From Pseudobdellovibrionaceae bacterium (GTDB lineage: Bacteria; Bdellovibrionota; Bdellovibrionia; Bdellovibrionales; UBA1609): a DNA stretch of 39,968 bases. How positions within the stretch are numbered: the stretch's first letter is position 1; each line of letters begins with the position of its first letter. Positions 5,723 to 10,254 of this stretch are shown one piece after another. The notes beneath the pieces were generated by a model. The model had not been told where the DNA came from, did not search any database, and saw nothing but the letters and a program-made list of their open reading frames with translations. The stretch is taken from contig JABJQG010000038.1 of NCBI GenBank assembly GCA_018663505.1, positions 1 through 39,968 of the forward strand, in the 5' to 3' direction. The position numbers were made by a program, and so were the translations under genes.

Positions 5723-5742
5723 TCATCAAAGGAGAATTGTCG

Positions 5743-7752
5743 ATGATAGAAATTGGAATATTAGCGCCGGCCGCTGGTTTAGTGGGATTAGTTGTTGCCC
5801 TCATTATATATATGCAAATGGTTAAGCAATCAGAGGGAACAGACAAGATGAAGAGCATCGGCGAAGAAATTCATTTAGGAGCAATGACCTTCCTTAAGGC
5901 AGAGTATTCTAAACTTGTAATTTTTGTAATTGTTGTTGCTGCTCTTTTAATGTGGAAATTTAATTTAGAAACCTCAATGGCTTTTGTTTTAGGGGCTTTT
6001 GTATCTGGCCTTGCTGGTTTTATTGGGATGAAATCTGCAACTAAAGGTAACGTAAGAACCGCTGCTGCTGCAAAAGACAGTGGTGTTGGCGCAGCTCTTC
6101 TGGTTGCTTTCAACTCTGGTTCTGTAATGGGACTCAGTGTAGCTTGTCTAGGGTTGATTGGCTTAGGGACACTTTACTATTTCTTTGGTAATCAGGAGCA
6201 AGTGGCTGTGATTACTGGTTTTTCAATGGGAGCTTCTTCTATAGCTCTTTTTGCTAGAATTGGTGGCGGTATATTCACTAAAGCTGCTGATGTTGGGTCA
6301 GATTTAGTTGGAAAAATTGAAGCTGGAATTCCAGAAGATGACCCAAGAAACCCTGGTGTGATTGCTGATAACGTTGGTGACAACGTTGGTGATGTTGCCG
6401 GTATGGGCGCGGATATTTTCGAATCTTACGTAGGTGCAATGGTTGCCTCTATTACTATTGCTGCAACAATGTCTTCTGAAGTTGTTGCTAGCCTAGGATC
6501 TTCCGCTACTAACCTATCTTTGATGAGTCTTCCTCTCACACTTTCTGTGATTGGTCTTGTGGCTTCATTGATCGGTATATTTGGAATGAATGTATTTAAA
6601 AAAATGGACCCAGCTAAAGCTTTAAATGGTTCAGAATACACTGCTGCCCTATTATTTATGATTGCTGCTTTCTTGTTTATTAAAACTCAAGGTTTCTCTA
6701 CTGGGATTTTTTGGGCGATTTTTGCAGGTTCGATGGCAGGTCTACTGATTGGTAAGGCTACTGAGTTTTACACTTCAGCCAGTCCTGTAGCAAAAATTGT
6801 GGAGGCTTCAAAGACTGGTCCAGCAACAAATATTATTGCTGGTATTGCAGTTGGTTTAGAGTCTTGCGCAATTCCATTATTTTTAATTGTTGTTGCCATC
6901 TTTTCATCTCATTATTTTGCCGGTTTATATGGAATAGCCATGGCAGCTGTGGGAATGCTTGCAACTGTTGGTGTGACTATGACTATTGATGCTTACGGTC
7001 CTGTGGCTGATAATGCTGGTGGTATTTCTCAAATGGCTGATTTAGGCCCTGAGGTTCGTGAAATCACAGATGGGTTGGATGCCATTGGTAATACAACAGC
7101 AGCAATTGGTAAAGGTTTTGCCATTGGTTCTGCAGCCCTAACTTCTTTAGCATTATTTGTTTCGTACAAACAGCAAGTTGGAGAAAGCATTAAGATGGAC
7201 ATCACAGATCCTAGGGTTGTGATGGGTCTTTTCTTAGGTGGAATGGTTGTTTTAATCGCAGCGGCAATGACAATGACATCCGTGGGTAAAGCAGCTTCAG
7301 AAATGGTTGATGAAATTCGCCGTCAGTTTCGTGAAATTCCTGGTCTTTTACAGGGTACAGGTAAACCAGATACTGCCAGCTGCGTTGAGATTTCTACAAA
7401 TGCGGCTTTAAAAGAAATGGTTTTACCAGGTGTTGTAGCTGTAATTTCTCCTGTTCTTGTTGGTTTTATCCTAGGCCCAGCAGCACTGGGTGGAATGCTT
7501 GCCGGTTCTCTTTTAGTAGGTGTTGTTTTCGCACTATTCATGTCCAATGCCGGTGGTGCTTGGGATAATGCAAAAAAATTCATTGAAAAAGGGGACATAG
7601 ATGGGGAATCCAAAGGCTCTGAAGCTCATAAAGCCACTGTTATTGGTGATACAGTGGGTGACCCGTTTAAAGATACAACTGGTCCTGCCATGAATATTTT
7701 AATTAAATTAATGTCAATTGTTGCGCTAGTTATTGCACCATTGATTGTTTAA
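5743..7752 (+). CDS. hppA: Membrane pyrophosphatase, K+-dependent type
   Basis: An ion-pumping membrane pyrophosphatase that couples PPi hydrolysis to export of H+ and/or Na+. The 669-residue length and about 16 membrane helices fit the family. The PPi/Mg site motifs are intact: [20 protein letters not shown] from about residue 198, GADIFESY just after it, and [14 protein letters not shown] near the C terminus. At the known K+-dependence positions the sequence reads [10 protein letters not shown] (449-458), with Ala453 and Gly456. K+-independent enzymes have Lys at the first of these, so a K+-dependent enzyme is predicted. Whether it pumps Na+ or H+ cannot be decided here. The ATG at 5743 has AAAGGAG 8 nt upstream; an in-frame TTG at 5737 is less likely. 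A strong terminator follows. Confidence 0.95.
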
Positions 7753-7779: not shown

Positions 7780-7809
7780 AAAAAGGTCAGCACAGTAGCT
7801 GGCCTTTTT
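7780..7809 (+). terminator. Strong terminator after hppA
   Basis: A 12-bp stem (7780-7791 with 7798-7809, one G-T wobble) has a 6-nt loop ACAGTA. It is preceded by five A and ends in five T, so it can work on either strand. It lies 28 bp past the hppA stop. Confidence 0.85.
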
Positions 7810-7836: not shown

Positions 7837-7985
7837 TCATATAAATGCCATTATATATTTTTTAATTTGAGGTCTTTAGCGCCAAAAGCGAGTTCGGATC
7901 GCAGCCCGCAGGGCGAGAACCGCATGTCTGAGCCTTTTGGTGTTAAAGACCTCAAATTAAAAAATGTATAATGGCATTTATATGA
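7837..7985 (+). repeat. 52-bp inverted repeat with structured 45-nt loop
   Basis: Left arm 7837-7888 and right arm 7934-7985 are inverted copies matching at 49 of 52 positions. All three differences (left-arm positions 7856, 7879, 7881) become G-U pairs in plus-strand RNA but A-C mismatches in minus-strand RNA. The 45-nt loop is GC-richer than its surroundings and can fold further: GTTC with GAAC, and GCCC-GCA-GGGC at its tip. The element sits in a convergent gap, beyond the hppA terminator and before the kinase stop. It is too long for an ordinary terminator and lacks a trailing T-run. It could be a MITE-like insertion, a structured RNA or a cruciform site. It contains no gene. Confidence 0.85.
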
Positions 7986-8040: not shown

Positions 8041-10254
8041 TTACTTGAGTCTTAAAATAACATTTTGGCGATCATTCTTTTTAAGTTTCACTGTTCGTAC
8101 ATCCACTGAGTTATTATATGGATTCACAGCTTTAATAACAATTCTAGTTCCAGCGGGAACTTTGTAACTTCTGATCGGTAGGCGAGCTTCTATGAGAGCC
8201 TTTCCGTTGATATAAACCCGTGCATTTCTTGAGGGTATAACATCAATTCCCAAATAGGCCACATGATCTTCAAACAAAGTCGCGTTAATTTTATTTTTTA
8301 GCAGTTCATTGCGAGTAACACCTTTTCGCTCATAACTTATAAAGCCATTTCTTTTTAATGTAACATTAAAAAATTCACTTTCTGGAACTAATATTTTGGC
8401 TGGAGTAATATAACCAGAGTTTTGACCATTTATATAAATTTCGGCACCTGATGGGAAAGACTGAATTACCACGCCTCCAAATTCTTTGGCTAATTTTTTA
8501 TCTAGCATGGACTTTAAGATATCAGCGCTGTCCTTTGGCTTATCTTTATTTTTTTCAAAAATTTCATCAAGTTCTTCACTTTTTTTACTCACGTTCATTT
8601 CGGGATCTTTAGAGGTGGATTGTTTTGCTCCTTCAATGGGGCTTACTTGATTTATTATATTTGAGGCGAGCTCTTCAATGGGCATGAGCTCTTGAGAAAA
8701 ATCTTCTCTGAAGTATAAATAAGTACTGAATGCCATAAGTAAAAAAATGGCAAATCTTACAAAATTTCTTTTTAGATTACTTTTCTTATATGTTTCTAAA
8801 GGAGGGCCGTTGTAGCTAGACGTAGAGTAACTTTGCTGACTTTGTTCCATTGAATCAGTCTGTATGTTACGAGAAGGAGTTTCATCTTCAAATTCTTCTT
8901 GAACATAAAATGAATTGTTTTTTTGAGTGATCATACCCGAGTCTTCAAGGCTCTCTGTTTTATTTACTTGTGGAGTTGAATTATCCATTTGCTCATCAAA
9001 TTCATTAATATATGATGGTAATTGGTCATCAGCAGAAGATTTATGTTCCCCTTCCTTAGTTAATGGATTTTTATGGCTACCTGTGATTTGGGTTTTTTCA
9101 TCAAGAATATTTTTGTTAGTTCTTTTTCTTTTTTTCTTATTTGCATTAGACTTGACCGCACTTTTGGGTACAAAGGAGTTATCATTATCAAAACCAAAAT
9201 CATCACTAGTTAGATCAATGGTCTTTTTTGGCTTTGGAGGAGGGATAGCATCTGTCTTTTGTTCATCTCTTTGCATTTTAGAAAACTCAATAAGTTTATT
9301 TCTAAAAGCTTGTATCTCATCACCATAAACAGACCTCATATATTCAGAGAAACTATTTGGTATAAACTCTGGGTAATGCTTATTCATAAACAGAGTTAAG
9401 TCTTTACTAAAAGCACCTGCAGTTTGGTAACGAAGGTTTCTGTCCTTATGTAGCACTTTAGCAATAATTTTTTCGAGTTCTGGGGGGATATTAGGGTTAA
9501 ATTTATTTAGACTAGGGACCTGGCAAGCTCTAATTTTTTTCAGGGTATTGATTTCGTTATTAGCTATAAATAACCGTTCATTTGCTAACATTTCCCATAA
9601 CATAATTCCTACAGAAAAAATATCTGTCCTCAAATCTACAATTTGGCCTTCTGCTTGTTCAGGGCTCATATAACCAAATTTGCCTTTAAGTGTACCAGCT
9701 TTTGTGGCCTCCATTTGGCTCTCAGCTTTGGCGATTCCAAAATCAATAATTTTAATTTCACCATTATAGCTAATCATAATATTTTGTGGGCTAATATCTC
9801 TATGGATGATATTCAATGGTTTGCCGGTGCTTCCATCTAGGCACCTATGTGCATGATCAAGCCCAATGGAAAGTTGGTTGATGATGTGTAAAACATACTC
9901 AACTTTAAGATGCTGGTTTTCTTTTGAAAGTTTATTTAAGACTTGTCGTAGGTTTTTACCTTCAACTAGATCCATAACAAGAAACAGCTGATCATTCTCA
10001 ATTCCAAATTCAAAAATAGAAACAATATTGCTATGAGTGAGGTTTAAAGCAATTTTTGCCTCATCTTTGAACATGCGTATAAATTCTGTGTTATTTGAAA
10101 ATTGAGGAAGAATACGTTTCATTGCACTAAATTTTCCAGCCACACCTACACCCGGAGCGCGACAAAGAAATACCTCGGCCATTCCACCGGCGGCAAATTT
10201 TTCATGCAAAATATATTTACCAAAATACTCTGGTTTTTCGGGTTCTTTTGACAC
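8041..10254 (-). CDS. Membrane Ser/Thr protein kinase with PEGA domains
   Basis: A eukaryotic-type Ser/Thr kinase of 737 residues. The kinase domain (about 10-290) is complete: glycine-rich loop FAAGGMAEVF (20-29), ATP lysine K46, helix-C glutamate near 65, HRDISPQN with catalytic D153 and N158, DFG at 171-173, and the SPE segment at 197-199. A low-complexity linker (about 330-495) contains basic and Ser-rich stretches. One membrane helix follows (about 499-515). Two PEGA-type beta domains form the C terminus (about 593-640 and 665-737; YINGQNSG, VYINGKA), placed outside the membrane. The GTG start at 10254 has an AGGAAGGA box about 9 nt upstream. It is divergent from coaE. Substrates are unknown; PEGA domains suggest envelope or surface sensing. 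Confidence 0.93.
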   Translation of the reverse strand: MSKEPEKPEYFGKYILHEKFAAGGMAEVFLCRAPGVGVAGKFSAMKRILPQFSNNTEFIRMFKDEAKIALNLTHSNIVSIFEFGIENDQLFLVMDLVEGKNLRQVLNKLSKENQHLKVEYVLHIINQLSIGLDHAHRCLDGSTGKPLNIIHRDISPQNIMISYNGEIKIIDFGIAKAESQMEATKAGTLKGKFGYMSPEQAEGQIVDLRTDIFSVGIMLWEMLANERLFIANNEINTLKKIRACQVPSLNKFNPNIPPELEKIIAKVLHKDRNLRYQTAGAFSKDLTLFMNKHYPEFIPNSFSEYMRSVYGDEIQAFRNKLIEFSKMQRDEQKTDAIPPPKPKKTIDLTSDDFGFDNDNSFVPKSAVKSNANKKKRKRTNKNILDEKTQITGSHKNPLTKEGEHKSSADDQLPSYINEFDEQMDNSTPQVNKTESLEDSGMITQKNNSFYVQEEFEDETPSRNIQTDSMEQSQQSYSTSSYNGPPLETYKKSNLKRNFVRFAIFLLMAFSTYLYFREDFSQELMPIEELASNIINQVSPIEGAKQSTSKDPEMNVSKKSEELDEIFEKNKDKPKDSADILKSMLDKKLAKEFGGVVIQSFPSGAEIYINGQNSGYITPAKILVPESEFFNVTLKRNGFISYERKGVTRNELLKNKINATLFEDHVAYLGIDVIPSRNARVYINGKALIEARLPIRSYKVPAGTRIVIKAVNPYNNSVDVRTVKLKKNDRQNVILRLK

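Follow-up and report, generated by a model that had tools for sequence, protein, structure and literature searches.

An inverted repeat in a 39,968-nt stretch of DNA from a Pseudobdellovibrionaceae bacterium (hereafter, the window) probably belongs to a family of non-autonomous mobile palindromes, each about 150 nt long and present in many copies, which are recognized by their structure and whose two arms are kept alike by fold-back copying; we assign this reading a probability of roughly 0.6. Copy number, the core and its loop, the paired but variable stems, insertion as a whole unit, nesting, and placement and orientation are taken from comparisons among copies and genomes, most of the genomes being MAGs, and from these we infer structure recognition by an enzyme and fold-back copying of the arms. 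The window copy lies between the stop codons of a membrane H+-pyrophosphatase gene (7752) and a convergent kinase gene (8041), and its parts and neighbours are as follows.

5737–7752, + strand: flanking membrane H+-pyrophosphatase gene (PF03030, E = 6e-255)
~7780–7809, + strand: terminator-like hairpin that belongs to the upstream gene and lies outside the element, read directly
7837–7985, + strand: whole palindromic element, 149 nt, one copy of the family
7837–7874, + strand: left outer arm, private to the window copy; a genome search found no third copy
7875–7887, + strand: inner part of the left arm, TTTAGCGCCAAAA, common to many type-1 copies and elsewhere changing together with its partner
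7888–7933, + strand: conserved 46-nt core, GCGAGTTCGGATCGCAGCCCGCAGGGCGAGAACCGCATGTCTGAGC, from the alignment of copies
7890–7894, + strand: 5′ side of the internal loop, invariant GAGTT, the same in 69 of 69 copies, the search pattern having demanded most of the motif
7895–7922, + strand: inner stem CGG...CCG and apical hairpin GCCC-GCA-GGGC, from the alignment of copies
7923–7932, + strand: 3′ side of the internal loop, conserved CATGTYTGAG, from the alignment of copies
7934–7985, + strand: right arm; 55 nt separate its outer end from the stop of the − strand gene
8041–10254, − strand: convergent Ser/Thr protein kinase gene with a PEGA domain (PF00069, PF08308), its stop facing the right arm

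An inverted-repeat search returned the arms described in an earlier note on this DNA, at 7837–7888 and 7934–7985: each is 52 nt long, they lie 45 nt apart and they match at 49 of 52 positions (94% complementary). As that note had stated, all three mismatches are G–T on the + strand and the 45-nt centre folds further. It had also proposed folding both strands as a check, and both fold far better than shuffled sequences: −90.9 kcal/mol for the + strand RNA (z = −13.5; 0 of 200 shuffles as stable) and −77.1 kcal/mol for the less stable − strand (z = −11.6). On inspection, the arms are A+T-rich and a T-run is absent on both sides, so that the repeat does not resemble an intrinsic terminator; the separate terminator upstream to which the note had pointed is visible as the terminator-like hairpin listed above.

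A repeat unique in its genome, absent from relatives and untranscribed would, according to the same note, be an isolated chance palindrome or an assembly artefact; the element is neither unique nor absent from relatives. A genome search with the central part of the element gave 41 matches in the genome that contains the window (G000; 3.78 Mb, 72 contigs), and copies occur elsewhere. A strict core pattern occurs 41 times in G000; across the order, 13 of 141 genomes have it (the reversed control pattern is found almost nowhere), G134 being a fourteenth carrier with at least 10 copies of a one-base core variant. Most G000 copies are single and dispersed, and G131 carries 18 copies. The relatives with copies are Bdellovibrionales MAGs, to which a scan of named genomes adds further Bdellovibrionaceae/Bdellovibrionales MAGs (CAR1_bin_21, RHO3_bin_33, RHO3_bin_17, ALOHA_A2.5_10, HKST-UBA12 and UBA1609) and one Clostridiales MAG, UBA1234, with three similar copies. 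Many further hits of that scan are in unrelated genomes and lack palindromic arms; these look like chance matches. The viral contigs searched gave no match.

Three zones can be told apart in the aligned copies: an asymmetric internal loop, an inner stem with its apical hairpin, and an outer stem. The loop, GAGTT / CATGTYTGAG, is the part that is invariant across phyla, and it is flanked by two stems that vary yet stay paired. As the search patterns demanded most of its letters, pattern hits were in part bound to agree in the loop; G000 copies found by nhmmer show the same loop without that requirement. Pairs of the inner stem covary across subtypes and species (CGG/CCG, CAG/CTG, CTG/CAG), and in G131 this stem occurs in the paired variants GCGAC/GTCGC, GCATC/GATGC and GCACC/GGTGC. 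The stem next to the core also varies in a paired fashion (TTTA, TCTA, CCTA, GGCA, CATC, AGCC). The 46-nt core hardly varies among 26 type-1 copies, and its variants differ from species to species, with CCGTATGT in the listed G134 copies and CCGCATGT in G133.

The element is very probably mobile. Two convergent genes of G133 (L234) are separated by a 152-nt palindrome and a short A-rich stretch, whereas in G134, of the same genus, the stops of the same genes overlap (L231), leaving an empty site. G019 likewise has nothing inserted at this site, which in G031 holds about 57 extra nt and no palindrome-sized insert. This is the one cleanly resolved empty site and carries much of the argument for arm insertion; at a second locus the element is present in G133 and absent from G134, G031 and G019. 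The hypF gene of G000 (L039:2738–5287, G000:C20) contains an in-frame copy: about 58 residues that homologs lack, between DDSLVK and LRRGRG, match the 163-nt palindrome, also in size. Judged from sequence, the empty site and the in-frame insertion indicate that the inserted DNA was the whole palindrome, including both arms. In three composite copies one element sits within the apical stem of another with its own private arms, and in a fourth nested case the element lies in the loop of a different hairpin. Nested palindromes at L040, L041 (two copies) and L035:5740–6150 measure about 300 nt in all. With about 41 dispersed copies, an empty site in relatives, the insertion in hypF and nested copies, the proposal of the earlier note that the repeat is mobile rather than a terminator is borne out.

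In G131 (L154–L169), copies gather at the ends of contigs and form incomplete tandem units in which the left arm and core are repeated; arrays probably break the assembly there. G134 has arrays of right-half elements at L225:1515–1835 and L233:1491–1867, with a conserved GGCGGGT-containing spacer between them. In G007 (L057–L059, L113), some copies form divergent pairs about 100–260 nt apart, CGG or GCGG follows most right arms and GAG precedes most left arms, possibly as a terminal motif of that species.

That unique arms surround a constant centre resembles what an unremoved hairpin adapter would leave, and one copy of a second hairpin family (described below) is apparently split between two contig ends. 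Adapter read-through, an amplification chimera or a chance palindrome is nevertheless hardly credible as an explanation, given that the same loop recurs with changed stems in unrelated MAGs from several genera and from Clostridiales, and that covariation, the in-frame hypF insertion, the fixed orientation and the 40 copies make chance impossible.

Copies lie just downstream of stop codons in a fixed orientation. Among those that have a gene stop no more than 75 nt away on a single side (n = 37; genes taken as mechanical ORFs of at least 80 codons), 33 have an opposite-strand gene ending at the right arm and 4 show the mirror arrangement (P = 1 × 10−6); the split is 19:2 in G000 and 14:2 in the other genomes together. 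In 33 of the 37 one-sided cases the core thus runs antisense to its neighbour. Strict placement after stops, together with a loop conserved between phyla, implies a recognizing protein, and we consider it likely that the element is recognized by its structure. The same fixed side and orientation (33:4) would be expected of a functional 3′-UTR element, a long hairpin that ends transcription or protects mRNA. We regard that as improbable, because the T-run is absent, the same genes lack the element in related genomes, its occurrence in the order is sporadic (13 of 141 genomes) and a copy also lies within hypF.

No mobilizing enzyme was found. No excess of direct repeats of 3–9 nt, as a target-site duplication would leave, was found beside 40 palindromes. 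The distribution of RAYT/Y1 transposases (PF01797) does not follow that of the element: three carriers, the incomplete MAGs G131, G013 and G001, give no match, and most genomes with PF01797 lack the repeat. RAYT was therefore rejected as the mobilizing enzyme, its presence being uncorrelated with that of the element.

The outer arms behave differently from the core. In the 40 G000 copies, the core lies at the centre of arms of 39–71 bp (median 55 bp) that are private to each copy yet about 98–99% self-complementary. The outer stem is partly common in sequence near the core and private farther out. At arm positions 12–30, 92–100% of 50–69 copies have Watson–Crick pairs, all four pair types being common; about one third would be expected by chance. 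Privacy has degrees: the arms of L022, L024, L028 and L023 are recognizably related along their length, some arms of different copies, and even of different core subtypes, align above shuffled controls, and related arms in G131 differ by paired changes. A weak outer motif, CAATTnCAnTAAATAAtTCCyTT, is common to some copies only, and no shared arm consensus was found among type-2 copies. Two other roles for arm sequence were rejected: as a repeated target site, because occurrences of the arm motif in the genome are essentially confined to these arms, and as ribosome-binding sites or start codons of the neighbours, because the real starts lie elsewhere, although type-1 arms have a weak SD-ATG-like consensus. 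At L052:2441–2499 and L053:1691–1751, G000 also has coreless palindromes, each about 60 nt long, near-perfect and closed by a loop of 1 nt.

Mismatches separate two parts of the stem. Among 1678 outer arm pairs in the 40 G000 copies there are 20 mismatches (7 G–T, 4 A–C and 9 others), with no wobble excess; a second count of the outer arms gave 6 G–T and 5 A–C, again without polarity. In the 12 core-adjacent pairs of G000 copies, the one-strand G–U pattern that the earlier note had seen in the window extends across the family, with 59 G–T and 0 A–C mismatches, largely inherited, many from one ancestor, and not independent. This polarity marks the + strand as the folding strand, whether as RNA or as DNA. 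A transcribed palindrome with a helix kept by compensatory mutations would accord with that 59:0 ratio, with the very stable + strand fold (−90.9 kcal/mol) and with covariation of the inner stem. Against it, selected RNA pairing should make G–U pairs common in the outer arms, and these lack such traces of RNA-level compensation. Moreover, with an antisense core in 33 of 37 cases, read-through transcripts from the adjacent gene would carry the other strand, with A–C mismatches, and an Rfam search at gathering and relaxed thresholds matched no family. We therefore think a structured RNA, the other possibility raised in the earlier note, quite unlikely; the mismatch pattern and the antisense core suggest a DNA hairpin no less than an RNA.

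Two arrays in G134 bear on how arms stay alike. In L225, the left arm matches the right arm across its own core at 33 of 33 positions and the other right arm at 26 of 34. In L233, it matches its own proximal right arm at 31 of 31 positions and other right-arm units at 23 of 34 and 30 of 32, the latter (unit 3) also being close. Arm identity in both arrays is thus to the partner across the same hairpin, above that to other homologous arms. Outer arms without common G–U pairs, together with array arms closest to their own partners, make fold-back synthesis the simplest reading, and arm identity is more probably kept by such DNA copying than by selection on RNA. In E. coli and in yeast, template switching homogenizes the arms of inverted repeats (PMC7202029, PMC8604942). 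Against fold-back copying, the core-adjacent G–T wobbles persist, and correction should erase them unless they are selected or young. Arms also differ far more than cores, and type-2 arms lack a consensus, so arms might be made anew rather than maintained.

If made anew at each insertion, the arms would arise as a small core moves and a polymerase folds back, copying flanking host DNA, so that one arm is native and the other copied. Arms that are private around nearly identical cores, species-specific core variants suggestive of recent bursts, and the left gene's stop codon lying inside the left arm in three G000 copies (L028, L035_3914 and L054) would all fit. The clean empty site, however, has room for neither arm, the hypF insert matches the entire palindrome, some arms align lengthwise above shuffled controls between copies and subtypes, and three tested arms have no third genomic copy. 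We consider this unlikely as the whole explanation, although arm synthesis at insertion may still form part of the process. Because the empty site lacks arms, the arms do not come from the target, and a native-arm model, once favoured, was dropped because that site holds neither arm. Copying from a third locus was also rejected: no third genomic copy was found for the arms of the window element, of L035_5910 or of family B. The stop codons inside the three left arms suggest that palindromes also grow outward.

Under our preferred reading of a structure-recognized palindrome with fold-back copying, a putative enzyme would recognize the folded + strand via the GAGTT / CATGTYTGAG loop and move the element; arm sequence would be free provided that pairing holds, because recognition is by structure. 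During or after insertion, DNA synthesis may fold back across the hairpin and copy one arm onto the other, by quasipalindrome template switching. Arms made in this way would drift rapidly in sequence, keep near-perfect palindromy and possibly grow outward into host DNA. A more far-reaching version, which we put forward tentatively, places the identity of the family in the asymmetric internal loop and the fold alone, with arms written anew or continuously rewritten by fold-back synthesis, so that each copy is a different palindrome. G000 also has a second hairpin, family B, at about eight places (L023:2556–2738, G000:C36; L176–L182), with a core of about AGGGCACAGCTCCTGCTTTGCTGGCATCACCCTTCGGGTGAGCGCTTCCAGCTTGCCAGAGCCC that is unrelated to that of the present family (family A) and long, private, near-perfect arms. 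Family B shares the same habit, which hints at a general process; under this version, at least two such families in one genome would suggest that the host or an enzyme builds palindromes around hairpins. Repeat finders seek common sequence; as members of this family have no more than about 46 nt and a fold in common, most of each copy looks unique and the element escapes annotation. If its arms are rewritten by fold-back copying, the palindromes would document template switching as it happens in the wild, each genome contributing many independent events, and strain comparisons would allow its rate and direction to be measured.

As an intergenic, palindromic mobile repeat the element is of a known kind; what we did not find described is a conserved loop within private near-perfect arms, and searches of open-licence literature, by topic and by sequence string, returned no description of the family. 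Quasipalindrome template-switch correction in E. coli and yeast similarly makes inverted-repeat arms identical (PMC7202029, PMC8604942), but it is known from mutation at individual sites, and we did not find it described as a driver of arm evolution across a mobile family. Bacterial MITEs and small mobile repeats (RUP, BOX, RU and Correia) are likewise non-autonomous, intergenic and multi-copy, with terminal inverted repeats, and the present element was inserted as a unit at a site empty in relatives (L234 versus L231 and G019); it differs in having no target-site duplication, and at its ends at most a weak motif recurs in some copies. Rickettsia palindromic elements are also mobile palindromic units able to sit in frame inside a protein, as in hypF here, but the present element otherwise lies outside coding regions, and its core and loop are not known to be related to theirs. 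REP/BIME sequences with RAYT (Y1) transposases are short, multi-copy, non-coding intergenic palindromes too, and they probably move as folded single strands with the help of a protein whose gene lies elsewhere. REP stems, 20–40 nt long, have a conserved sequence and carry a GTAG/CGTC tag (PMC3733652). In contrast, the outer stem of the present element is private to each copy and reaches 71 bp, and RAYT presence does not track it. Integron attC sites are recognized as a folded strand, and their stem sequence varies around a constant fold and a few constant unpaired bases. On inspection, the GTTRRRY / RYYYAAC boxes of attC are absent from the element core, most element copies are dispersed without cassettes, and the arms are far longer and near-perfect; as in attC, the stems vary while the fold and the internal loop stay.
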